Assembly: GCF_027942865.1 (NCBI RefSeq)
Contig: NC_134524.1
Coordinates: 21,195,536 to 21,259,535 of the forward strand
Direction of reading: 5' to 3'
Source of the DNA: Odontesthes bonariensis
Lineage: Eukaryota; Chordata; Actinopteri; Atheriniformes; Atherinopsidae
DNA: 64,000 nucleotides
Positions 7,901 to 64,000 of the stretch are shown in pieces. Position 1 is the stretch's first letter, and the number at the start of each line of letters is the position of its first letter. Both the position numbers and the translations under genes were made by a program. The notes below the pieces were generated by a model. The model worked only from the letters and a program-made list of their open reading frames with translations. It made no database searches and had not been told where the DNA came from.

Positions 7901-8430
7901 ATGGTTGACAGGAATAAAGCCAATGCTTTGGAATGACCAATTCAAAGTCTTGACTTCTGATGTGAGCAGTTAATTGTATTAACAATACGGTGTATTTATT
8001 TTTGGATCAGATGTTTGACTCATGTTTCGGTAGGACTGCAGGAATGTAATTTCATGTCTGAGGTAGTAGTGTGTAAATGTGCAACCGTTGTTATGTTGTT
8101 ATTGTGACATGCTGTTATGTTAATCTGAGTAAAGACTGGGTGTGCCTTGTGTATGTGGTTTGTGGAGAAAACTATGACAAATGCACTGACCAAAGCAAAC
8201 AGAGCTGGGCATATGAATCCTGAATTTTAGGAAAAACATATTGTGCTTCAACGTATTTACACAGTTGCACACAAATGGGAGCAGAATCACTGGTATCATT
8301 GTTTTGTTTTAGAAAACTAGCAACATGGGTAAGCAGCTCTCTTTCTGCCCGTGACAGTGATTTTTCTGCACTTCCTAGATTAAAGATCTTCCTCTCGCTG
8401 ATCACAACTTCCTCATTTCTCGTCGTACAG
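4988..8430. other. Gene-free spacer and upstream region of the TRIM gene
   Basis: No coding exon is recognised. The end of the stretch (about 8391-8430) is a pyrimidine tract and acceptor (CGTCGTACAG) just before the TRIM start codon, so at least one 5' non-coding TRIM exon should lie somewhere in this region. I could not place it. Confidence 0.4.
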
Positions 8431-8433
8431 ATA

Positions 8434-11400
8434 ATGGCCTCCTCGGGCAACATGCTGCCGGAAAAACAGTTCCAGTGCACCATCTGTCAGCACGTGTTTA
8501 CCGACCCAGTGACCACTCCTTGTGGACACAACTTCTGCCAAGCCTGCATCCAGACTGTGTGGGACAGCAGTGATGCGTGCCAATGCCCCACCTGTAAGAA
8601 GTCTTTCACCTCCCGGCCTGAAATAAGCATCAACACCGCCTTCAAAGAGCTCGCCGACTCGTTTAAGCAAATTATAGTCTGCTCGTCGGCTTCACCGCTG
8701 TCTGCAGCCAAACCGGGTGATGTGGTGTGTGACGTCTGCGCCGCCACATCCCAGCAGGTGAGGGCCCTAAAGTCCTGCCTGGTTTGTCTGACGTCCTACT
8801 GCGAAGCCCACTTGGAGCCACACCGGAGGGTCGTCACCCTGAAGCTGCACAAGTTGATGGAGCCGGTGAAGAACCTGCAGGACAGGATGTGTAAGAAGCA
8901 CCAGAGGTTGCTGGAGATGTTCTGCAGGGACGAGCAGATGTGTGTGTGTCAGTTCTGCACCGAGACAGAGCACAAAGAGCACCAGACCGTCACTATGGAG
9001 GAGGAAAGCAACGAGAGGAAGGTATATGGAGGATATTCTGCTTTATAGAATGTGGGTCTAAGACAACGGGGGGTTTCAAGACTAGATCATGTGAGACAGA
9101 AAGAACGCCCCATTTTAATTGTAAGAATTTACATGTCAGGACATGATTTTTAAAAAGCGTAACACCTTAGAACTGAAAAAGGGTGTACTTTCAGGACTAT
9201 GAATGTCCCAATGTAACTGAGTTAAATGTTATACATTATATGCTTTCTACCAACAACTCAAAGTTTGCTCTCTTTTTTTCCCTGTTTAGGTCCAAATGAA
9301 GCAGACTGGGGCAGATTTACAACAGACCACCCAGGAGCGACTGAAGAAAGCAGGGGAGATTAAAAACTGTCTGAAGCTTAGCACAGTAAGTTGTCATGGA
9401 AACATTCATTCCTGTCATCTAGTTGAACTAAGCAGATGAATGGAGTTGAGTCATCAAACATTTGAAATTATAGGGGATCTCGTGTACTCCACCGAGGCCA
9501 ATGCTGGGTTTCACAGCTTTAACCAATGTGATCCCGACTTGCAACAAAACGTTGCGCTTCTTGTTTCGCCGACGCTCTCGAACCAAGTTTCGTGAGATTT
9601 GGTGAGCTCGTGCTGTAAAACATATCTCCACATCAGCTTTCATGCTGGAGAAAGAAAGAAGGTCCTCTTCCTCACTTTACGTTTAGGTTGTCATCAGAAA
9701 TGGGTTTAGAAAAGCAGTTTAGGCTTTTGGAAGACCATAAAAGTAGAAGGCATGATCATGGCATCATTGTGTACTTGCTATTTATGTTCTCATATGAGCA
9801 GTATGCTGATAAAGCCGCCTGGTAAAAGGCAGCAGGGATACGGATTTCTCCAACAGCATAGAATTCATTAAAGCATACCTTCCACTGCTCTCTTTGGTTC
9901 TTCAGATATACTAAATATTTCCAGCCCTGCTATTTGGGGCAAATAAAACAAAAATGGACCCAGAAGTAGGCAAGTTTAATTGAAAGAAGTTTATTGAGCT
10001 TAATGCATTGATCGTCACTGAAACATATACTCACGGTTATAGTTCAAACATGCTTTCTAATATCTTTATCCAGCTGAGTGCAGAGAAGGAGATGACGGAG
10101 AGCGATCGTCTCTTTGCATCTCTGAGCCGCTCCATCGAGGAGATACGAGCTGAAGTCAACCTAGAGATTAAGGAGAAGCAAGAGGCTACAGAAAGGAGGG
10201 CGGAGGAGCTCATCGGCGAGCTGCAGCAGGAAGTCACTGAGCTGCAGAGGAGAAACACTGAGCTGGAGGTGTTGGGGAACACCGATGACCACCTGCATCT
10301 CTTACAGGTTAGCATGGACATCAGACTGTGGTGAGTGTGGGGTGTTTAACTTAGGAAGGCAAGGATTTTGAACAAGATTGATAAAAAAGAGGGAAGGAAT
10401 ATGTGTTTCTCTATCCGACCCAGCGTTTCCATCACATGAACTCTTTTTCAATTAGATGAAGGTGAGGTTTTGTGGTAAAAAAAATGAATTTGTAGTTTTG
10501 TGTCGGAAACAATTTTGGCCTTGATAGTGCACCATTTTTTGGGGGGTGAAAATATGACACATTCATGCAAAAATTTGGAATTTCTTCCCTGTGGCAGAGC
10601 TTGCCCTCTCTCATGTCGCCCCCACCCACCAAACAATGGATGGAAATCGGCGTCCACCCTGAGCTCTGCGTGGGCACGGTGAGGAGAGCGCTGTCCAAAC
10701 TGGATGTCACGCTAAAGAATGAACTGGACAGGTTGAAGAAAGAAGGTAAAGTGAGCTAAGACGGGCTGCTACCATTAAATTCAAGATGAAATAATATTTT
10801 TCATGAGATGAAAAATTTAATCTAACACTGTCATATACACACTAAGGTCAGACAAACAGTCCTTACATTTAAACACATTTCAAAGCATTACTTTCTTTTC
10901 TTTTTTCCTCTGACAGAGATGAGAAGGATGCAGAAATATGCAGGTATGAACATGTTTAACACTGATATCTAAATCACTTTTTTATCAACTAAAGAAGCCA
11001 CATTTTTCCATTTTTTTCCCCATTTAACCTTACAATCAATTGTGTCCAGTCATTTATTCTCTGAACTATTTCACCATTTAATTTGCTCATTACCCTTAAC
11101 CTTCTCAGTTATGCTGCAGGCTTCCCCAAAGACTAGGAGATTCCTACTCGTGACCTTTGATACTGGTGGTTGTAGACTGGGTGATCAATCCATGTAAAAG
11201 GCTGGCAGTGGAAAAGAAAAAATAATGCCATTTGTGACGGTAATGTTTGAACAATGCCTTATCTCTATAGTCGATGTGGTGTTGGACCCACACACTGCCC
11301 ATCCAAACATCGTCTTATCAGCTGATGGAAAGCAGGCGGGCCGAGGTGAGCTGCTGCACATCGTCCCTGACAACCCCCAACGCTTCGACCCCGTCATCTG

Positions 11401-20263: not shown

Positions 20264-21833
20264 GTGTGTGTTAAATAGTGCATCAGGCTGCATTGAAGCT
20301 GCACAAGACGATTTAATTTAAGTGGATAATGTCTTCTTGACCTCATTTGAACCTTTAAAGGGGAACTGCGGTATTTTCAACATTAAGCCTCTTTTTCTCA
20401 ACCTGCTTCAGAATGGCAAGTCATGTGCATGTCCTAAAAGGTCCGTAAAAGCACCATAAACGTCCGTTTTCAAAATCATCAACTCACCGGAGTGGTTACT
20501 GGTGTGCACTGGTAATCCATATCATTATTTGGCAGCTCGTTCATGCTCGAACTATTTTCTTAGCCACCTCACAGCCGTGGATAAACTTCCGCTCAGCAGT
20601 TGAATCTGACTTGCTATACTCTACACCACTTGATGGCGGAGTAATATCAATGAACATCCAGTCTTCCATAGAACTCAATGGGATTTACAAAATGTCAAAT
20701 AAAACACGACAGAAGCAACTTTTCGCCACGAAATTTGATATGGATTACCAGTGCACACCAGTAACCACTCCGGTGAGTTGATGATTTTGAAAACGGACGT
20801 TTATGGTGCTTTTACGGACCTTTTAGGACATGCATATGACTTGCCATTCTGAAAAAGCGTTGAGGGGGGTTCTAAAACATTGCAGACGACTCATAAAAGA
20901 GGCTTAATGTTGAAAATACCGCCGGTCCCCTTTAACAGTTGTTATATATTAATTTGCATGAAACGCAGTGCTGTTGCAGGAATAAAAATGCCACCAGTGG
21001 AAAGTCCTTCTCATTTCATGTGCTTCCGACCGCCCCTCCTTTCCCTTAAAGGCCAACGTCATGTTAGAGTACGACATCGACGAAGCCCAGGCTCTCCTGG
21101 AGAAGAACCTGTCCACAGCATCTCGCAACCTGGAGACGCTCGAAGATGATCTGGATTTCCTGCGAGACCAGTTCACCACCACCGAAGTCAGTATCCTTCC
21201 ACAGTGCTACGGTGATAAAAGTTTCAGTTTTTCTTTTGCACGCACACACTTATTGTTCCAGCTTTTCCTGCTAAAGGGATCGACCCAGCTTCTGTCTTCA
21301 GCACCGAATAAACACGGTGAAAACGTGTTGTGGGCTTTGGGGGCGTTTTATGCAGCAGACAAATGGCGACACCTGCTGGGCCGATGTGTGAGTGGAGCCG
21401 TGATTGCACGGTTAGTCATAGCAGAAGTAGTACTGTTCTTATTCGATAAACATTTGATTGTGTACCGCATTTTTATTTTAAGGGGAAAATTCTTTTAAAG
21501 TCCCAGCATTTGAAATAATTTGATAAACGTACTCAATATGAGAGCAGATGGGCGATATACTTGTAGCCTCCATGTGCAGTAAGCTGAAGTTGGTTAATTA
21601 ATCTGCTGTGGAGGGAAAAAAAAATGTCACTTTAGAGAAGTTTCCATTCATTTGCATTCATAAGCATTGTTATCTTTCAGCGCACACATGAGGAAATGTG
21701 CATCTGCTCGTGAGAGCCCTCGTTTCTGTTTCTTCTTAACTCGCTGCTCCCCTCAGACATGGCACGCGTCTACAACTGGGACGTGAAGAGAAGGAGCAAA
21801 GAAAACCTCCTGAAATCAGTTGAAAAGTCTTAA
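16092..21833 (+). CDS. vbp1: Prefoldin subunit 3 (VHL-binding protein 1)
   Basis: Subunit of the hexameric prefoldin co-chaperone, which captures nascent actin and tubulin and hands them to the CCT chaperonin in the cytosol. Six exons: 16092-16172, 17025-17149, 18875-18941, 19312-19410, 21052-21190 and 21757-21833. They join in phase to 195 aa, the usual length. Features are an N-terminal GIPEAVFVEDVDSFM, a first coiled coil (about 45-90), the prefoldin alpha beta-hairpin region with VCLWLGANVMLEY (about 115-130), and a second coiled coil ending RDQFTTTEVNMARVYNWDV. All introns are GT-AG. Introns 2 to 4 carry long homopolymers and repeats, including a 38-T tract against the exon 4 acceptor. 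Next door, rab39b lies in the opposite orientation, as in the human Xq28 block. Identification is firm. Confidence 0.97.
18464..18502 (+). repeat. T8-G7-TT-G22 homopolymer tract
   Basis: Eight T, seven G, two T and then 22 uninterrupted G, in vbp1 intron 2. The G strand is the sense strand, so the pre-mRNA carries it too. It is a strong candidate for quadruplex structure and a likely sequencing or assembly trouble spot. Confidence 0.9.
19264..19301 (+). repeat. T38 homopolymer at vbp1 intron 3 acceptor
   Basis: Thirty-eight consecutive T, then GTTCCCACAG and exon 4. It forms the polypyrimidine tract of the acceptor and is far longer than needed. Confidence 0.9.
19855..20015 (+). repeat. Dispersed repeat 3' region (copy 2)
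   Basis: GGCTGCCCACCGCTCCAGG, a GTGTGTGACC/GTGTGTGTC stretch, ATGGGTTAAAAGCGGAGGAC and an AATAAATCAGATCTTAAT tail. It is the longer counterpart of the fragment at 2055-2150 and the 3' part of a common teleost retroposon-like repeat, in vbp1 intron 4. Confidence 0.7.
20125..20270 (+). repeat. Compound (CT)n-(AT)n microsatellite
   Basis: About 28 CT units (to about 20180) run directly into AT/TATA blocks broken by GTCTATATGTTAAAGACAT. Sits in vbp1 intron 4. The CT part is a homopurine-homopyrimidine mirror repeat. Confidence 0.9.
20355..20935. mobile_element. Foldback/TIR element with arms of about 170-195 bp
   Basis: The left arm (20355 to about 20525) is repeated inverted as the right arm (about 20740-20935). 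Both contain GGTATTTTCAACATTAAGCC, TCCGTAAAAGCACCATAAAC and CTCACCGGAGTGGTTACTGG in opposite orientation. The ends read TTAAAGGGGA and, mirrored, CCCCTTTAA, which suggests a TTAA target as used by piggyBac-type elements (inference). The right arm is about 45 bp longer inside. No transposase is present, so it is a non-autonomous element, in vbp1 intron 4. Confidence 0.85.
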
Positions 21834-32799: not shown

Positions 32800-39420
<6,621 letters not shown>

Positions 39421-49308: not shown

Positions 49309-52300
49309 ATGCAGCATGAGCGCCTGCTCAAAGTTTTGGTCATCGGGGATCTGGGAGTCGGCAAAACGTCCATCATTAAACGGTACGTCCACCAGGTGTT
49401 CTCCCAGCACTACCGAGCCACCATCGGAGTGGACTTCGCCCTCAAAGTGCTCAACTGGGATCACAAGACGGTGGTGCGGCTGCAGCTGTGGGACATCGCC
49501 GGTGAGTTCGTGCGTGGCTGATTACCTCGCGCCTGTGTGATAACCCCGAGCACCATCTGTGTTTGAAGAACGGCTCGAGCTCGCTCCTTATCTGCACAGC
49601 CAAATATTACTCAACATGCTCAACAGGCGAGAAAAAAGGCAAAAATAGTAGAGCTCAGCCGTTCTATGCAAACAGTGTCTGGATCTCTTGATTTTTTTTT
49701 TTTATTTCAAAGTCTTCACGTGCCCCTGACTCATATACACAACCAAACAAACTGTGTGCTCAGATGCGGCCCAATCACAAAGCATTTTCAGGTCATTAAC
49801 TGAATTAATTCCGTTTTCTGCTGCTTTTCAAGTCAAACTTTTTCCATTTAAATTGGGCTGATCATGATAATGGTTAACGCGTGAATTCTAAAGTGTTTCT
49901 CTACATTGAATCAACAGTAGATAGGATCAGTTCTGAAAACAGCTCTGGTCAGTCAGGGCATAGAGGTAGGATTGTTGAGGCTGGGTGAACAGAAGCTTCA
50001 TAGTGACTTTTAGAACATAAAAGGCCGCTGAACACTTCAGAGTCTTTTTCCGTGTTCATCGAAAGGCTTCCTAAGCAAATTTTTCCAGGAGGGAGACCAC
50101 TGAAATGTTTCGGTTGGTGGCAAAATTAATATCAAAATAACATCCAGGTAAATGTGAGCATCTCTGTCACTCTTATCAAAATGTGGAGCTATGTTTGTCC
50201 ACACTGGGTCAGCAACCTTTGTGACACAGAGTGCCAGTTTGAAATTGTCTTCTCAACGAGTGTGCCATTATCAACTATAACGCAAAGTTCGATTATGACT
50301 AGATAGAAAAACATTTCCAACACACCTGAAATTTTATTCAATCCATAGCACATCCAATCACGTTTTTAAAGATATGTTTATTAAGTCAAAAACACTGCTG
50401 TTATAAACATATTGCACTGGGAAGAGAGGCCAAAACTAAGACCACAGTGCAACAGTACAATATCTGTACATCATAACAAAGCAGCCTCCTTAATAAATCC
50501 GCCATCTATAAACGGCTACCCATGTTCGCAAAGCACTAGCTTGCTTCTGTCCCATGATTTTTAACAGAAGTAAAAACTTTTTAAGGGAGCTAGCTTGTTT
50601 ATCATATCTGGTTACAGCACGTTTAATTGACTCTGCTTTGTCTGCTTGGTCTTTGAAAGTCTTCTCGTCCCAAAATGCCGCTTAACGTTCGGCACACAAC
50701 ATTAAGTGCACACAACACGGTCTTTCAAAAATGCAAAACCAAACTCATGTGTCCGTGAAGACTGGAATGCCCTATAGTTTTGGCCCTTTTTAGCAGCCAT
50801 CTGTATTGGGTCTCTGGGAATGTGGGCGGATATCTGTCACTCAAACCTAAGAAATCAGGCCACACATAAAACGACGATTGTCATAACACAGAGGTGCCAG
50901 CGGGCCAATGTTTATGCTAGAGGATGCCACCGGACGCACGAGTGCCAAAGGTTGCTCTAAAACTGCGAGATGGCTTTATGTTTCGAGGGTGTATCGGTGG
51001 GATGAGACTCATCACCCTGGCAACAACAGATATTTGAAAATGGAGCTTTGTAACACGTGCTTTGCCTGAACTTTAATCTATTTTATTCTGAAAGGTAAGA
51101 GTAGCACCACTGCCACTGAGTTCGAAACAAAGTTTGAAGCAGTAATTGTTCCAGATGGGACACCAACCTGTGTTTCCTCAGCAAAAGTCACGTGACCTAC
51201 AACACCACCACCCCTCGTACATCCTTGTCCATTGTAACTTGTAGCTAAGTAACTTCACACAGTCATTCGACATCAACACAGGCCAGTAGAAAAGCAAGCA
51301 GACCTAAATGTAGCCATTTCCCATTTGCCAACCCTCCTTGTGAAACTTGAACGTTGTGCTCTTTCCATTCACCAGTGCAGCTTTTCAACTGAATCCAGAG
51401 GCTGGTATATGTTGAATGCGGACGTTGCAAATAACAGTATTTTTCAGCTATATTCATCATTTTACTTACTTAGTTAATGTTTTTTTGTCTTCTTTTTGGT
51501 TAGATCTACCTAATTCAAGAAAATGAAAAGAAAAAAAAAAGATCATGTACATTCAAACATTCGCTTAGTTTGTTTATGAGCTTGGTGCATTTGTGAATTC
51601 TGTCTGCCACGATTATCTCCTTTTTTAAGACTTCAAGCTAAATGTATTCTCTGTTTTAAAACGACACACAAAACCGATTAAATGGTCTCAAGATCATAGA
51701 AGATGAAAAACTGAGGGGTAAAAGTCTTGCATTTGGAATGCTACTTCAGTGAAAGTAGAGGTGTTCCAAAGAAGGAGAAGGACCGAAAGTATTCATGCTG
51801 AATGTTAGCTTGATTTGAACTCTCATTGAATGGAATTAAGTTTCCTATTGAGGTTGTAAGTTAAGTTCTATTGTGTTGATAATTGCATTTCCTGTACATC
51901 GATTGGGCAACATTTCATGCAGTTAAAGTATTTACGAAAGAAGAGGCATTAAGATGCATTAAATGGGAGTGGCAGAGTACTTAACTGAGTACTTAAATAT
52001 GTTCTTAGTTTCATCGTGCCTTTTTTTTTTTTTTTTTGCAGAAGGTGGATGAAGCATTTGTGAAATACTATAAATTAGTTACTTACTTACTTACTTAAAA
52101 TCCGTTAGATAGTACTTCAAATCATCACCAGCATGCGATACCGTCGTTCATGCATTCGAAAGTTTTTCTCTGAGTCATTGTGATGAGGGTGCGTTAACTC
52201 GCCATTTGTTTAAACATCTGTCTTTTCTTCCTTCTGTTACTACTCAGCATAACGCTGTCCCAACACACAGAGAGTCAAACCCCATAGCACACATTCAGTA

Positions 52301-55300
52301 AACTGTCACGCTTGCTGGCTGCGTATTGCTGACACATCCAACGATGATGATGCATGACATGACGAGTGGTGGCAAACCGCCATTCCTGCAGATGCACACA
52401 AGAAAAGCCCTTTGTATTCAGCTTATAAAACCACCGTGTCTCCGTAATTGCAGGTAATCAGATCTATTGGGAAATTCCTTTCCTGCTGTCTCGCAGCCGT
52501 CTCTCTTTGTCACATCGACGCTGAAACACACAGTCTCCTGTTGCCGTGCGTGTTGAGTCGGGTGATAGCTGATGGAGGCCATCATTTGCATGGAGATGCG
52601 TGGCTGAGGCCGTTTGCCAGGTCGAACTTTAGAGCGGCACGGGTTATTTTGTCGAACTGCACACAAAGTTGTCACTTATCCTTTATCAAAACATTCCAGC
52701 TTTTATCACAAGATAAAAGTTAAAGCTAAAGTCCTATGTTCTGCCTGTACTATCAGGCTGTTTCTGCTGTGTAAGATCCTGTTAGATTAGGACGCTTTTG
52801 TTCTTGGCTGATTTGGTAGATCGCCTGTGTGAGTTCCCCATTGAATTGGTCACAAATAAAGATTATTAGCTTATAGCGAGTAAAGTCTGGCCCACTTAAT
52901 ATTCTTTTACCTGCAACAAAATGGAAGAAACAAACAGCATCTGTTTCTCTCAGGCAGCTTGTATATTAGGTGTCTGGGCACACAAGTGCACCATGCATGA
53001 GTTTGCCGTGCTGTGCAGGTCATGTGCAGCGTGTCTATCGGACGCTCACATGCTGATTCACCTCTATATTAGGATCATGTGGAGGAACTTAGTAACCAGG
53101 ATAGAGACTTATTCATGTGTGTGTGAGATGTGCAACACAAAGTGCATCTTTCTGCATGCATACACTGAGGTTTTAACAGAATTTTCTCTTACACCTCTGT
53201 TTGCGTTTTAAAAGTCAACAGTCTAATGCACAAAAGCCTTGTGGTCATTTTAACATCTTTTGGTGGTTGTGTTGTTTTTGCTGCCGACTTTGTGGACAAT
53301 CTTGTCGAACATTTCTACGTTTTGCGTCTATTTGTTGAAATTCTTGTGGTCATTCTGAGCCTTTAGATGGTAACTTTGTGTGTCACGTTGGCCAATCTTG
53401 TATCTTGTATCGATTATCGTGCGTTTCATAATGGTCAGTTTGTGTTTCATTTTGGTCACTCCACAAATGATCTGCTTTGTTTTTTTTTGCCTTTTCATTT
53501 TTGTTACACACCTGAACTCTTCACAATCAGTTTAACTGTCTTGCATCTTTGTAACCAATTACAAACCAATTTGTAAATATCGTTTCTGAGATAATTTGCA
53601 TGCTGTTACGGTTGTTTTTGCGTATCATGTTGTCACAAAGGGGTGTTGGCAGGACACGGATGCGGACTTCAGAGGTGAAAGAAAAACTTGGTTTATTCAC
53701 AAAAAAAATCAAAACAGGGTTAACAAAAAGCGCGGCTGAGCCGGATGACAAAACGAGACTGTGGGAACAAAAACATGAATATCACTGTGACAAGAAAACA
53801 AAACAAAAGACTTAACATGACATGGAAAAAGCACTTAGCGCGTGGCGTGGCGTGGCGTGGCGTGGCGTGGGAATGGTGAGATCGGGGAAAGAAATCACAA
53901 ACTGAAAGGAGAGCATGGAAACTAAATAGTGAACTGAGAGTGATTGACAAATTAGTGCAGCTGGGGAACGATGGAAAGGTGAAGTGAATGAAACTAATAA
54001 CCTGGCATGGGAAGTGAGGGGAAAAACAATGGCAAGACCTAAACAACCTAAAAAATGATAAAACTAAAAACATGGGGAAAACTCCATGGACGTGACACAT
54101 ATTTGGCAATTTCTTTGAAATCTTAATGTTTTTCGCGCTTAATTTGGTTAATTTAATCTTGCATAGGAATCGTTTTGCATTTTTGTAGTCATTCTGTGTG
54201 AAATGGCACAAATATCTGGGCCAACTCCACTTAGATCCAATTCAACTGGTTAGGCTTAGTGGACAAGTTTTGGGTTAGTTAGCATAGCCTCTGAAGAAAA
54301 ACTGTCTTTTTCACAGACCAATATCTTATTGATGACCCAAACATACCAAGCCCAGGTAGAGGGCACCTTTCAGTAATCGAACCATGAAGGAAACTAAAGA
54401 GGACAGTCCCGGGAGTCGTATTTTGTAAAAAGGAGAAGCTCAGTGTAGCAGAGTCGTGGCCTTTATAAGCAGAGTTAAAAATGGCACCGTCACTCAGCTC
54501 TAATGCCAATTTTCCCAGTGGACACTCTCAACATTTCAATGAAAAAAAAAAAAGCCCTGTTTTTTTTTTCTTTCTTCTGCACACAAGAACAGAAAACTCT
54601 GTTTTTGTGTGACGTCACCCCAGTTTACAGGCACAGTGCCCACCAGAGAGTGTAACCAGCAGGGGGAAACACTAATGATCACGAGCACTGGCATGAACAA
54701 CGTGGAGATAATCTTGGAAGCTTGAAACCTGCTATGTTTTTTTTGCACAGACTAAAGTCAGGAATATACTTGCTTTTTTTAATCACATGCTGACCCGGCC
54801 AACTTGCTCCGTCATGGGCATAATTGTTCACACACTTGTGAGGATTCCTACTCTGAGGCACACCGAGTTCAGGCCAGGCTCAGGCCAGAAAAAAAAAAAC
54901 ATGCCATCGGAACAGTCCCCTCTCCGTTTCTCCAACATTCTTCTTCGTGCAGGGGATGTTTCCTGATCTCTCGCCAGCGATTTTCACAAGCATATTTGTG
55001 ACCGCGCTGTGCCGAAGACGCCTTGTACAGATCCGGGTTATTGCAGACTTTCGCTATAAGTTGTGTCATCAAAACTTCCTGCTGTATTTACCACTGCCGA
55101 CCCGATGACCCTGCTTCAAAACAGGTGCGGGATACGCCAGGCAGCCATGATAAATACTTGTATCTATAATAAAAAACAAGTTCCTGGCTGAGTCTGATTT
55201 ATGGTTCCTCTTACACATTACCTCATTTTTACATTTTTACATTCTCTATATGACAGAAAATGAGAAAAAACATTGGGGTCTTCTGTCATTAGTACATGCT

Positions 55301-58300
55301 TTTAAACAAGAAGGTAACAATTGTATTGTAATGACAGTCTTCAGATACCAGAGAGGGGACCAAGTCACATATGTGCAAATCTCAAGTAAGTCTCAAGTCT
55401 TAGCTTTCAAGTCTCAAGTAAGTCCCAAGTAATTTTTTCTTGGGCAAGTCAAGTCAAAGTCAAGTCACCTTATTATTGCAATTTTACCGGCAGAATCTGA
55501 TCTTAATAAAAGTGAAAAGACAAGATATAAGTAACTGTCAGTAAACATCATTGGCCAATGTGTCCAACCTGTCCACCCCGTATCATATCAAGCTAACGTT
55601 AGCTAACTACCGACTAGGCTAACAGGATAATATTAGCTAATTTGACAAGCACTTACTGGTCAGAATGGATCTTCAAATGACGAACAAAGTTCGAAGTTAT
55701 GCTAGATGCTTAACACTCAAGTCATCCAAGTCATCGTGTCTCAAGTCAAGTCAAGTGCCGAGTATTTAACTTCCAAGTCCGAGTCGAGTCTCAAGTCTTT
55801 TATTTTTTGTCAAGTCACAAGTCATCAAAACAGCAACTCGAGTCGACTCGAGTCCAAGTCACAGTGACTTGAGTCCCCATCTCTGTCAGATACTGATTTA
55901 AACTTTACTTAATCCTGAGCCATGCAAGTAAGTGAGATCACCTTTTTTTTAGCTAATCTGCGCCCACTTCATACCAGCAAGAGGAGGCCAAGAAATATGA
56001 AGATCTCTTATTCATTGTAAGAAAAGAAAGAAGAAATGTTTTCGGAGCCTGAGGAATGAACTTAATTCAGTTTGAACATTCTTAAATTAAGTCATTTTGA
56101 GAGCCAGCCAGAATGAAAAATAGAAAACTCATCATGTGTTGAGAGAAGGCGCCTTTGTGCTATTTGTTTTTTATCTTTTTCCACGAATGAAGTTAAGTTT
56201 GGATTACGATCTAATTTCAGTTGCGCAACTCATTTATTTTATGATGAACTTGGGTGTTGCCGATCACATGGCTGATACTTCAGTGATTGTCAATGGTGGC
56301 AGGAAAACCATAACCAAAAAAAATCTCACAGACCTTTTTTTTTCTTCCTTTTATCAAGGACAAGAGCGCTATGGAAACATGACCCGAGTGTACTACAGAG
56401 AGGCGGTGGGGGCCCTCGTTGTCTTTGACATGACCAGGCTGTCCACGTTTCAGGCTGTCTTAAAGTGGAAAGGTGATCTTGACTCGAAGGTAAGTTTGCC
56501 CAACGAGGTTGAGGATTGGGGAATGACAGGAGGCAGGGGGCGAGGTTAAAGAGAGAAGGACAAAATAAGCTCGAAGGCAACTACCAGAAGAAGTGAAAAG
56601 CAGTTAAAAGATCAATCCTCCACAGAAGGACCACCACAAAACCAGATACAAAGGAGAGGTTTTTATAAGACCTGGATTCACAGTATGAGATGAAACATTT
56701 GACAAATAGGCGGTCAAGTTTTTTTAGGGTTATTGATTGAATTCATGTGTTTCATGTTTCCTGTGGAGCTGTGGTCACAGTGACTGTTCACTTCTACTCC
56801 CCTCTGATGTCTCTCTTTTGCTTTCACAATGTTTTAAACCACGGTAGCCATTTCAAATCCCTCTCCAGCAGTTAATAATCGCTTAAAAACACACCTGTTC
56901 ACCTCAATATTTTTTTTTTTTCAAATTATTTTTTTGGGCTTTTTATGCCTTTATTAGATAGGACAGTGTAGAGAGACAGGAAGCAGGGGGCAGAGAGGGG
57001 GGAACAACACGCAGCAATCTGCGGGGCATTCTGATGCGGGATTTGAACCTCTTGTACATGGGGCGCCTGCTGTACCCACTACATCACAGACCGCCCCCCG
57101 TTCCTCAATATTGTAGATTTTGAAGTGTTTGCCACAAAGCAACTTCTGAAAGATTTTATCGGGATATGACTCACCCTTTTCGGTAAACAGGAAAGGCAGT
57201 GGGCAAAGTCTCCCCCAACTCTGCAGAACTCACTTTGTATAAATTACAGGTTTGTAACTTTATACTTAATTTATAGCACAAAGACTAAACGGCAATAAAA
57301 TTACAGCTTAGGCTGCCGACTTCCTGTCAGTGTGAGACTCCACTTAAGAAGCTGCTCCACTTGTTCTCACTTCATTTTAATTCATTACTAAGAGATTCGC
57401 AGCTTGAGCGCCACAGTCGAGTGCCTGGTTATGTCGACGAGCGCTGCCTCTCTGTAGCATGCGCGGGTCGAGTTTCCTTAGCGTTCATGTCCTTGTCGAA
57501 TGGGGGAAAAAGAAGCAAAAGACAAGATCTTTGTCATTGTTTTTTATGTGGTTTTCCTGCCACCATCATCGTAGAGATAGTTAAAATATCGGATCAGTTA
57601 AGTATGATCAGAATCGATGTCGTACTGTTGGCTGTGAGTTCTTGTCCACATTGAGCTATCTGCCAACGCTGCGTATGCACTCATCAGCTAAGTGTGCTGC
57701 ACCTTCCCCTCTGCTACACTTCAACTTTCATGCTTGTCCTCTGATTTGTATTTGATTTAATCCATCTATAGCAACGGCACATCTTTAATAATAATTAATA
57801 CTGCAGCAATATCATTTCCCTTCCGTAAAAAAAGCTCCAGTAAAAACAGCGGAAAACTTGTTAGAATTCAGTTGCCTGTTTGCACATCTGGTAGTTAAAG
57901 AGCTGCATGTTTTGTGCCAAACTTTCATGTGTATTGTATGTCTCCATTAACTCAAAAGATAGACACTTTGTTCATGGGTGCAATGCTGGTACTCTTCTCA
58001 CTTGCTGAAGCTAAGCCAACTTAAAAAGGTCAATTTCCAGATTGGCCAGCTTAACAATGACCTGCGCTGTAGACTCAGGTGACAGTTATTGGGAGATTTA
58101 AGACCGTAGGGGGCCCTGCTACAATGTATTATTTACATGTAGTGATTTTAGTCGCATTTCTTTTTACTCTCTTCTGTTTTCTCAGGTCGCCCTAAGCAAC
58201 GGCAGGCCGGTCCCAACCGTTCTGTTGGCCAACAAGTGTGACCAGCGTCGCAACGGTTTGTGCCCCAAACTGCCCAAGCTGGAGAACTTCACCAAAGAGT

Positions 58301-60029
58301 ACGGGTTCGTGGGCTGGTTCGAGACTTCCGCCATGGCAAGATATGGTTTCCTTCTCTTTTTGTTTTCCGCCTTGCTGTCAGCGCCTCTGACTTCTTCTGC
58401 AAAATGACGTCGCCTTAGACGATAGTCAATGCGTCTCAAGGTCTCTCGAAAAATGGCTCCAAATAGTTAAAAAGAACAAAAGGAGGCCAAGTTAATGCAG
58501 CAAAATGTCACGTTCTGTCACTGACTTTATGGTTGGTGAAATTCGTACAGATCGTGCAGTAACACATTTAGCTACTGCAAATGTGTAGCCGCATTTTAAT
58601 GTGGTACCTCTGTTCCATAAGGTTGACCAGGACTTATTAAAGCTATCCCCTATCATGAGGAGTTCATCATTAAGAAACCTCATCCTCTCCTTTTTCGTCT
58701 TTTATAACGTTTACAGTGGAGACGTTCACTTGCACAAACGGCGCCACAGATGGTTTCTCTTGAAGTAATCGCCCTGGTTACCAGATAGAACATTTCAGCA
58801 TTTTTTTCTGCTCATAATGCTGCACGACTGCACTCGTTTCCTCTCTGAACTGGCAGCTGTTGTCAGGAGTCAAAGTTTTTAAAAAGCACCATATAGTACT
58901 TGTCAACACAAAATGACAGTAACACGGGAGTTTAAAAACATAATCTGCTCCTTTGAATTATGTAAATTCCTCCTCTGATGAAGAACATTGCATGACATAA
59001 TACATTGTTTCATTCGTTTTTTTTTTGTTTTCTACCACAACAATCCCAAACTGCAAAAGCTGCGTGTCGAAAAAGTCCACCCTTCCTGCTTCCACAGGAA
59101 ATCAGAGGGTAAAATGCACTTGATTAACTGATCATCAGCAAGTTTAACAGTTTTGTCAGTCTGCCAGGTCTGGAGCATTCAGATTCCAAAGAGGAAACAC
59201 ATTAGCAATGATCTTATTGTCACTGCCCATCAGTTTGAGAAGAGATGTTGTTACTAAGCTTGTCTCCTATTATAAGGTTGGAGTTGCAGCTTTGTACACT
59301 GCCCCCAAGTGGCAGGATCATTAATGCTGCAGAAATATCAATGTTTTTTCCTATTGCATTTGTTGCCGAATGTATCAGGACAAAAATCCCTGTTAAATTC
59401 CTTTTCAACATCTGTGAGTTAAGTGATGATGGTCTAACTGATAAACGTGATGTAAACTCTGCGTCTCTGTGCACGTGTTGCTGCACAGCAGCTGTTTTTA
59501 CTACTTGTCTTTCCTGGAATACATGGACCAGAGTTTTTTTTTAAAGTCCTCTCAGGACAAATTCCACGAAACTGTAATCGTGTCTTCCCACGCTAATCCG
59601 GCTAAATTGAAAACTCATGCCGAGCTTGTTTTCAAACCAAAAGAAGGAAGAAAAAGAATTTTAAATGAATCAAATTTCAATTTAAAACAACCTGAAAGCA
59701 CTTGCGAAGACAAATGTCGCTTTCAGGATTTCAGATTTAGCTGGCTCACTCTGCCCAGCTCTGCCCCCATCATCCTTCTCTGACCTTTTTTTTCTTTTAT
59801 CTCCGTCCTCTCTCTGCAGGACAACACCAACATCGATGCCGCCATCACATGTTTGGTGAAAAACATCATGTCAGTGGAGGAGGAGAGGGCCTTGAGCGAC
59901 GCCGCAAGGAACGAGCCAGACGGCAGCATTCTTGTGCTGCCTCGCTTCGACTACAATGTGAAGGAGAAGGGACTCGGTGGATGTGCAGGATGCTCCTCAT
60001 TTAAAACCAGACGTGGAGACAATGACTGA
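49309..60029 (+). CDS. Rab32/Rab38-subfamily GTPase (possibly rab38c)
   Basis: Small GTPase of the Rab32/38 branch, which sends cargo such as tyrosinase to lysosome-related organelles. Four exons: 49309-49501, 56359-56489, 58186-58335 and 59820-60029. They join in phase to 227 aa. The P-loop is GDLGVGKTS (13-21) and switch I is ATIGVDFALKVLNW. WDIAGQE (61-67) has the isoleucine that marks Rab32/38. MTRVYYREAVGA, LLANKCDQ (121-128) and GFVGWFETSA follow. The start MQHERLLKVLV aligns with RAB38; the frame is open 38 codons further upstream (49195), which I read as 5' UTR. Oddities: SAM instead of SAK/SAR at 156-158, a GC donor after exon 3 (ATG|GCAAGA), and a C-terminus GGCAGCSSF followed by eight residues KTRRGDND, so no cysteine motif at the end. 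Intron 1 is 6.9 kb. Subfamily is sure; the exact paralogue is not. Confidence 0.92.
52077..52098 (+). repeat. (TTAC)n microsatellite
   Basis: About five TTAC units in intron 1 of the Rab32/38-like gene. Confidence 0.7.
53220..54210. repeat. Degenerate T-rich minisatellite, interrupted
   Basis: Loose repeats of the type GTTTTGCGTCTATTTGTTG and GTCATTCTGAGCCTTTAGAT run 53220-53630. They resume at about 54105-54210 (GTTTTGCATTTTTGTAGTC) after an inserted element. They are the complement of the array near 47230-47700. Confidence 0.55.
53631..54097. mobile_element. Inserted element with TGTCAC...GTGACA ends
   Basis: Starts TGTCACAAAGGGGTGTTGGC and ends CTCCATGGACGTGACA, giving very short inverted termini. 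The inside is A-rich and contains a (GTGGC)n run at about 53840-53867. It splits the surrounding degenerate minisatellite, which indicates insertion. Superfamily not assigned. Confidence 0.55.
55349..55885. mobile_element. CAAGTC-rich TIR element (long copy)
   Basis: Starts CAGAGAGGGGACCAAGTC and ends GACTTGAGTCCCCATCTCTG. Nearly identical at its outer parts to 41329-41632 but with an extra central segment (about 55535-55765, including AAGCTAACGTTAGCTAACTA). Sits in intron 1 of the Rab32/38-like gene. Confidence 0.8.
56913..57102 (-). mobile_element. tRNA-derived SINE-like element
   Basis: On the minus strand the head contains TGATGTAGTGGGTACA (an A-box-like segment, 57086-57071) and, 21 bp on, GGTTCAAATCCC (B-box-like, 57049-57038). 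The body (TGTCTCTCTACACTGTCCTA on that strand) ends in an A-rich tail (poly-T on the plus strand, 56913-56924). This is the layout of a tRNA-related SINE with a pol III promoter. It lies in intron 2 of the Rab32/38-like gene. Confidence 0.75.
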
Positions 60030-62129: not shown

Positions 62130-64000
62130 TCTTGTCTTTACCTTCGTATTTGCCTTTGTCTTTACCTTTGCCTTTGTCTTTTTCTTTACCTTTGTTTTCA
62201 TCTTTGTCTTTACCTTTGTCTTTGCCTTTGTCTACCTTTGTCTTTACCTTTGCCTTTGTCTTTACTTTTGTCTTTGCCTTTGTCTTTGCCTTTGTCTTTA
62301 CCTTTGTCTTTACCTTTGCCTTTGTCTTTACCTTTGTCTTTGCCTTTGTCTTTACCTTTGTCTTTACATTTGTCTTTGTTTTTACCTTTGTCTTTGCCTT
62401 TGTCTTTACATTTGTCGTTGTTTTTACCTTTGTCTTTACATTTGTCTTTGTCTTTACTTTTGTCTTTGCCTTTGTCTTTACATTTGTCTTTACCTTTGTC
62501 TTTGACTTTTCCTTTACCTTTGTCTTTGTCTTTTCCTTTGTCTTTGTATTTTACTTTGTCTTTGCCTTTACCCTTGTCTTTGTATTTTACTTTGTCTTTG
62601 CCTTTACCTTTACCTTTGTCTTTTTACCTTTGTCTTTACCTTTACCTTTGTCTTTTCCTTTGTCTTTGCCTTTACCTTTATCTTTGTCTTTGTCTTTGTC
62701 TTTGTCTTTGTCTTTTCCTTTGTCTTTGTCTTTGTGTTTGTCTTTGTCTTTGCCTTTGCCTTTGCCTTTACCTTTGTCTTTGTCTGTCTTTGTCTTTTCC
62801 TTTGTCTTTGCCTTTACCTTTGTCTTTGTCTTTACCTTTGTTTTTACCTTTGTCTTTACCTTTACCTTTACCTTTACCTTTGTCTTTGTCTTTTCCTTTG
62901 TCTTTGCCTTTGCCTTTGTTTTTACCTTTGTCTTTTTCTTTGTCTTTGCCTTTACCTTTGTCTTTGCCTTTGTCTTTGTCTTTGTCTTTGTATTTTACTT
63001 TGTCTTTGCCTTTACCTTTGTCTTTGTCTTTGCCTTTACCTTCGTCTTTGTATTTTACTTTGTCTTTGCCTTTACCTTTACCTTTGTCTTTTTATCTTTG
63101 TCTTTGCCTTTGTCTTTACATTTGTCTTTGTCTTTACTTTTGTCTTTGCCTTTGTCTTTACATTTGTCTTTACCTTTGTCTTTGCCTTTGTCTTTACCTT
63201 TACCTTTGTCTTTGTCTTTTCCTTTGTCTTTGGCTTTACCTTTGTCTTTTCCTTTGTCTTTGCCTTTGTTTTTACCTTTGTCTTTGTCTTTTTCTTTGTC
63301 TGTGCCTTTACCTTTGTCTTTGTCTTTGCCTTTACCTTCGTCTTTGTATTTTACTTTGTCTTTGCCTTTACCTTTACCTTTGTCTTTTTATCTTTGTCTT
63401 TGCCTTTGTCTTTACATTTGTCTTTGTCTTTACTTTTGTCTTTGCCTTTGTCTTTACATTTGTCTTTACCTTTGTCTTTGCCTTTGTCTTTACCTTTACC
63501 TTTGTCTTTGTCTTTTCCTTTGTCTTTGGCTTTACCTTTGTCTTTTCCTTTGTCTTTGCCTTTGTTTTTACCTTTGTCTTTGTCTTTTTCTTTGTCTTTG
63601 CCTTTACCTTTGTCTTTGTATTTTACTTTGTCTTTGTCTTTACCTTTGTCTTTGCCTTTACCTTTACCTTTATCTTTGTATTTTACTTTGTCTTTGTCTT
63701 TGTCTTTACCTTTGTCTTTGCCTTTACCTTTACCTTTGTCTTTGTATTTTACTTTGTCTTTGCCTTCACCTTTCTCTTTTTACCTTTGTCTTTACATTTG
63801 TCTGTCTTTACTTTTGTCTTTACTTTTGTCTTTACATTTGTCTTTACCTTTGTCTTTGCCTTTGTCTTTACCTTTGTCTTTGCCTTTGTTTTTACCTTTG
63901 TCTTTACCTTTACCTTTGTCTTTGTATTTTCCTTTTCCTTTGTCTTTGTATTTTACTTTGTCTTTGCCTTTACCTTTGTCTTTGCCTTTACCTTTACCTT
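62130..64000 (+). repeat. Hexanucleotide array, CTTTGT/CTTTGC/CTTTAC
   Basis: At least 1.87 kb of 6-bp units of the form CTTTGY and CTTTAC, with some CTTTTC and CTTTGTATTTTA variants, reaching the window edge. The plus strand is T-rich and purine-poor; the minus strand reads (AAAGGY AAAGAC)n. Because the period is a multiple of three, frames stay open by construction: FVFAF or LCLYL on plus, KDKGK on minus. The open frame at 62020-62505 is this effect and not a gene. Part of the array is duplicated as a unit of about 296 bp. Confidence 0.95.

Follow-up and report, generated by a model that had tools for sequence, protein, structure and literature searches.

Rabs are taken to require prenylation for function, and the tail of human Rab38 has a further cysteine three residues before that of its terminal CAKS. 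The available portion of PMC3504004 describes how such ends are handled: CaaX enzymes need the box in their pocket, and Rab geranylgeranyl transferase sets the tail alongside its active site, with up to five added residues being tolerated by the latter enzyme, an observation credited there to Wu et al. Farnesyltransferase is active on extended sequences, for which the accessible part of PMC10320760 gives no length. An excerpt of PMC3864799 ranks human Rab38 with the Rabs that are prenylated most slowly, and its end CAKS, a CaaX sequence, appears in an excerpt of PMC11152559 as the one human sequence of the tested set that farnesyltransferase did not fully modify. The subfamily is recognized by the sequence FALK, which marks the group of Rab32, Rab38, Rab32LO and Rab7L1, and the P-loop then distinguishes Rab38 (GDxxxGKT) from Rab32 (GExxxGKT); five Rab32/38 genes are known from zebrafish (PMC4728774, in the portion available).

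The locus considered here lies in a stretch of 64,000 nucleotides from the fish Odontesthes bonariensis, which we refer to as the window. A splice model of four coding exons on the plus strand (49309-60029) yields a Rab32/38-class gene of 684 nt and 227 residues with no internal stops. Exon 1 (49309..49501) runs from the ATG to DIA-G, includes the P-loop GDLGVGKT, switch I and FALK, and ends in a GT donor; exon 2 (56359..56489) extends from GQERYGNMTR to DLDSK between an AG acceptor and a GT donor; exon 3 (58186..58335), from VALSNG to ETSAM, has an AG acceptor and a GC donor (ATG/gcaaga); and exon 4 (59820..60029) carries the tail and the stop. Exon 4 matches the genome at a single place, namely itself, at 100%. 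Within intron 1, short repeats resembling CAAGTC or GTCAAGT are clustered by eye at 55370-55870 and are absent from the TRF output. The protein belongs to the Ras superfamily, scoring 139.2 bits for PF00071 against a curated cut-off of 21.6. FALK stands at residues 43-46, after switch I, which by the rule of PMC4728774 places it in the Rab32/38 subfamily, and its P-loop has the GDxxxGKT form that the same rule assigns to Rab38. Its switch II, DIAGQERYGNMTR, departs from the consensus DIAGxERFGxMTR only in an F to Y change that is shared with the paralogue termed C21b below. Matches in the PDB to human Rab38 (6s5h, E 7e-83) and Rab32 (5oed, 4e-82) show that it is far nearer to these than to Rab7L1 (1.8e-57). 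Identities of 127/176 residues with human Rab38 and 125/173 with human Rab32 in turn make it about equidistant from the two. It shares both the P-loop form and FALK with 6s5h but differs in its end from the CAKS of human Rab38 (PMC11152559, excerpt); with 5oed it shares FALK but not the GExxxGKT P-loop. The alignments with these PDB relatives do not extend over the tail.

Residues 213-227 of the window protein read CAGCSSFKTRRGDND. They begin with CAGC (residues 213-216; 59982..59993), whose two cysteines would be expected to carry the prenyl groups. Overlapping this is CSSF (residues 216-219; 59991..60002), a candidate ancestral CXXX box. An earlier note on this DNA had drawn attention to CSSF and to the frame running on behind it, and the splice model bears this out: the translation continues as KTRRGDND (60003..60026) to a TGA stop (60027..60029), and the last 11 residues contain no cysteine, as that note had also stated. 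Its further point, that one more T in the T3 run at 60000-60002 would place a TAA right behind CSSF, is confirmed by computation; the run lies in a T3A4 context within TCATTTAAAACC, which begins at 59997. As read, the fourth residue from the C-terminus (224) is glycine and not the cysteine of a CaaX box, which in this protein would require a stop after F219. The end is likewise not of the Rab38 type, in which CxxC is followed by a short CaaX-like end: CAGC is there, yet 11 residues follow the last cysteine.

Paralogues were collected across the 945-Mb genome (187 contigs) by a protein search, which gave 75 matches, together with a Ras-family table; 150 of the 162 candidates were scored, and the set may hence be incomplete. 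Four Rab32/38 paralogues, C21b, C21a, C14 and C29, could be reconstructed, all with open frames, so that with the window gene this genome has at least five Rab32/38 genes, matching the zebrafish count in the available portion of PMC4728774. Contig C15 also has a Rab29-like region (L040), which lies outside these four. C21b ends in NCSSCVKW, C21a in TCSGCFK, C14 in TCSSCFTSQ and C29 in PGCC, that is, respectively 3, 2, 4 and 0 residues past the last cysteine. The window gene has 11 there; its tail exceeds all those compared, and its KTRRGDND, beyond these 0-4 residues, has no counterpart in the four. As these paralogues all stop so close to the last cysteine and human Rab38 ends in CAKS, the eight-residue read-through looks derived, and comparison of the predicted proteins makes the loss of an ancestral stop in the window gene likely. 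Single-exon GTPases of the same genome, sought on both strands with a looser pattern, were read at 11 loci with 8 distinct sequences, seven of which end 0-3 residues past the last cysteine; the eighth, without a cysteine near its end, resembles Ran.

A protein scan of viral and prokaryote contig collections returned no orthologues of the window protein, a literature text search with pieces of its tail returned no paper, and the accessible portions of PMC4728774, PMC4684697 and PMC11505094 did not yield a complete fish Rab32/38 C-terminus. One candidate for such an end, the zebrafish Rab38c reverse primer (PMC4728774, excerpt), of which a frame reads MTCSKS and might be a terminal CSKS box, was dropped: C21a reads MTCSGCFK before its stop at this place, so that the primer may not mark the end. 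Among random 20-mers, C[SA]KS turned up in 245 of 2,000,000.

Of the four paralogues C21b (contig C21, L039) has the highest identity to the window gene, at 131 of 169 aligned GTPase-domain residues. Both have four exons, an intron after DLDSK and a Rab39-like neighbor; C21b differs in ending with CSSCVKW, in having ETSAK and in its GT donor. The intron after DLDSK is present in no other of the four. C21a and C14, the fish Rab38-like forms, share the GDxxxGKT P-loop and FALK with the window gene but differ in their ends (CSGCFK and CSSCFTSQ) and in having a single exon that spans DLDSK. The fish Rab32-like C29, also without the intron, shares FALK but has the GExxxGKT P-loop and the different end PGCC. 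In the tree the window gene and C21b form one group (ultrafast bootstrap 81), apart from the Rab38 (76) and Rab32 (76) groups, the join of the latter two having a value of 25. This separate group, the extra intron and the Rab39-like neighbor suggest that the window gene and C21b possibly constitute a third vertebrate Rab32/38 lineage, whose two genes perhaps go back to the teleost genome duplication.

The GTPase domain of the window gene is intact. Of the 107 sites at which the four paralogues agree only three are changed (V89M, C144T and K158M), and relative-rate counts for the window gene and C21b are 7 and 11 with C21a as outgroup, 8 and 10 with C14, and 10 and 12 with C29; on these counts there is no decay and no rate excess over C21b. 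K158M, seen in the window gene only, turns ETSAK into ETSAM: codon 158 is ATG, encoding M in place of the K of the four paralogues, and is followed by the GC splice donor (58333..58337), where the paralogues have AAG/GT, so that two differences fall within four bases. The Rab39-like neighbor has ETSAR at this place, which indicates that the lysine of ETSAK is not universal among Rabs, and one frame of the largemouth bass rab38b forward primer reads ETSAKD (PMC11505094, available portion), which fits lysine having been the earlier residue at position 158. With one unusual splice donor already present, a second departure in splicing might be imagined, in which a splice before CAGC leads to one more exon, and this exon supplies a normal prenylation motif; the four paralogues, however, terminate in the corresponding exon, and we consider such an alternative 3' end very improbable.

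A loss of the stop could have produced the present tail in a single step by any of three routes: deletion of one T at 60000-60002, TAA to AAA at codon 220, and TGA to AGA at codon 222. The second yields the identical CSSF box without a frameshift, and in the third the old stop would stand after FKT. Thus, of the proposal in the earlier note that one T is missing, the part concerning a stop near the cysteine agrees with the state of all four paralogues, but the missing T as the cause of the loss does not stand out, the two substitutions fitting equally. Codons 220 (AAA), 222 (AGA) and 224 (GGA) are each one substitution away from a stop, which for codon 224 is TGA; such codons make up 3 of 8 in the extension and 68 of 219 in the body, and hence carry no signal. 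The probability that a given cysteine would acquire a suitably placed stop by a +1 change is 3.5% when codons are resampled and 6.2% when the local base composition is used, rising to 7.9% and 12.3%, respectively, if one-base gain or loss is allowed; of five cysteines examined one, C216, has the property that an added T creates the stop. Taken alone this is weak evidence, but it gains weight from the fact that CAGCSSF followed by a stop would match the CxxCxxx pattern in which C21b, the closest paralogue, ends (CSSCVKW). The same match, the resemblance of the four-residue box to the human CAKS and the sufficiency of a single T would also be expected if the assembly or the sequencing had gone wrong by one base and the real gene stopped after CSSF, its product being prenylated like Rab38-type proteins. 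Against such an error speaks the short T3A4 context, which is no long homopolymer. Moreover, the window has no N, the 945-Mb genome is in only 187 contigs, and an array of about 1.9 kb (1.86 kb) adjoins the gene, all of which suggests long reads. Six Rab coding sequences of this assembly are unbroken, namely the five Rab32/38 genes (3,216 nt, window gene included) and the Rab39-like gene (642 nt), and a substitution accounts for the CSSF box equally well. We therefore regard a one-base error as a serious but rather unlikely possibility.

The alternative that we hold with moderate confidence, and as the best explanation overall, is a stop loss after which the tail runs into the former 3' UTR. 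An ancestral stop within a few residues of the CxxC prenylation motif would have been lost through one of the three single-base events, and translation would now enter formerly untranslated sequence, adding up to eight hydrophilic residues, KTRRGDND. We infer that the direction was a loss in this gene and not four gains of earlier stops, that the change is genuine and that it involved a single base. The composition of the extension is of relevance here: only 3 of its 8 codons have G or C in the third position, against a fraction of 0.749 in the body (P 0.028), and the third positions favor a composition like that of the 100 bases directly behind the stop with a likelihood ratio of about 10. 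With all three codon positions the extension scores an undecided +0.53 bits, where 24-mers of the body have a mean of 5.7 (sd 3.6) and those of the UTR a mean of -5.9 (sd 4.9).

The UTR-like third positions also argue against an old functional tail, that is, a long hydrophilic stretch past the cysteines carried by the orthologues of related fishes, with no recent loss. Such a tail would accord with the F-K in C21a (TGC TTT AAA TAA) and the V-K in C21b, by which the frame through K220 can have been inherited, and with the window gene evolving no faster than its sister C21b. Yet the four reconstructed paralogues have at most 4 residues past the last cysteine and C21b stops 3 residues after CSSC, and we judge this reading unlikely, more so than an error. 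An F-K inherited as in C21a would fit the window frame as read. It is no refutation of a missing T, since TTT TAA A minus one T likewise gives TTT AAA. The alignment of the tails is itself ambiguous: MAFFT pairs CAGC with the CSSC/CSGC of three paralogues, and pairwise alignment pairs CSSF with CSSC. When the residues after CSS were shuffled, 3,650 of 20,000 orders equaled or bettered the true one in their alignment with the three Rab38-like fish tails, and for single tails 8,680 (C21b), 3,718 (C21a) and 6,232 (C14) of 20,000 did so; this similarity is not significant, the shuffling does not tell the two pairings apart, and homology of the tail is weak. At the DNA level exon 4 had no significant match at the C21b locus (best E 0.86).

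For a protein ending as read, the earlier note had predicted failure of both standard Rab and CaaX prenylation. As regards the latter this should hold: the window protein should be no CaaX substrate, CaaX enzymes being presumably unable to use CSSF with eight residues behind it. The failure of Rab prenylation, however, was overstated in view of the tolerance for up to five added residues described in the accessible portion of PMC3504004. With 11 residues behind the last cysteine, more than in any tail compared here, and with human Rab38 already slow and CAKS incompletely modified, the protein may nevertheless be a poor substrate of Rab geranylgeranyl transferase; REP and this enzyme may still modify C213 and C216, more slowly or not at all, and poorer modification would leave a larger cytosolic pool. 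A Ras-superfamily protein without the ancestral lipid-anchor end, as this one may be, has a parallel in Rheb GTPases whose prenylated C-terminus was lost or replaced (PMC5869587, in part), where, however, the cases cover whole lineages and not one gene in one genome. That the stop loss is fixed and makes one gene of the pair a non- or poorly prenylated Rab with its GTPase domain under normal constraint, a naturally cytosolic Rab and possibly a sink for effectors in the traffic of lysosome-related organelles, is a speculation to which we attach little credence. If the tail is real, nature would have provided a test of what length of extension Rab geranylgeranyl transferase accepts, with C21b as a built-in control; if it stems from an assembly error, the value lies only in a corrected gene model.

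Elsewhere in the window, a Rab39-like gene of three exons lies on the minus strand at 32800-39263 (642 nt, 213 residues, ending in CLC), whose only PDB match at E 1e-60 is Rab39B. Contig C21 (L038, L039) has a second pair of a Rab39-like and a Rab32/38-like gene in the same orientation as in the window, the Rab39-like gene lying to the left of C21b and opposite to it. About 11 kb separate the Rab39-like gene from a frame at 20986-21495 that matches a prefoldin subunit, presumably VBP1-like. Downstream, the array mentioned above, a degenerate tandem repeat of CTTTGT-like units, occupies 62132-63995 and reaches nearly to the end of the window. At the other end there are frames for a TRIM-type RING, B-box and coiled-coil (8224-10331), as well as C-type lectin frames on the minus strand at 765-2053.
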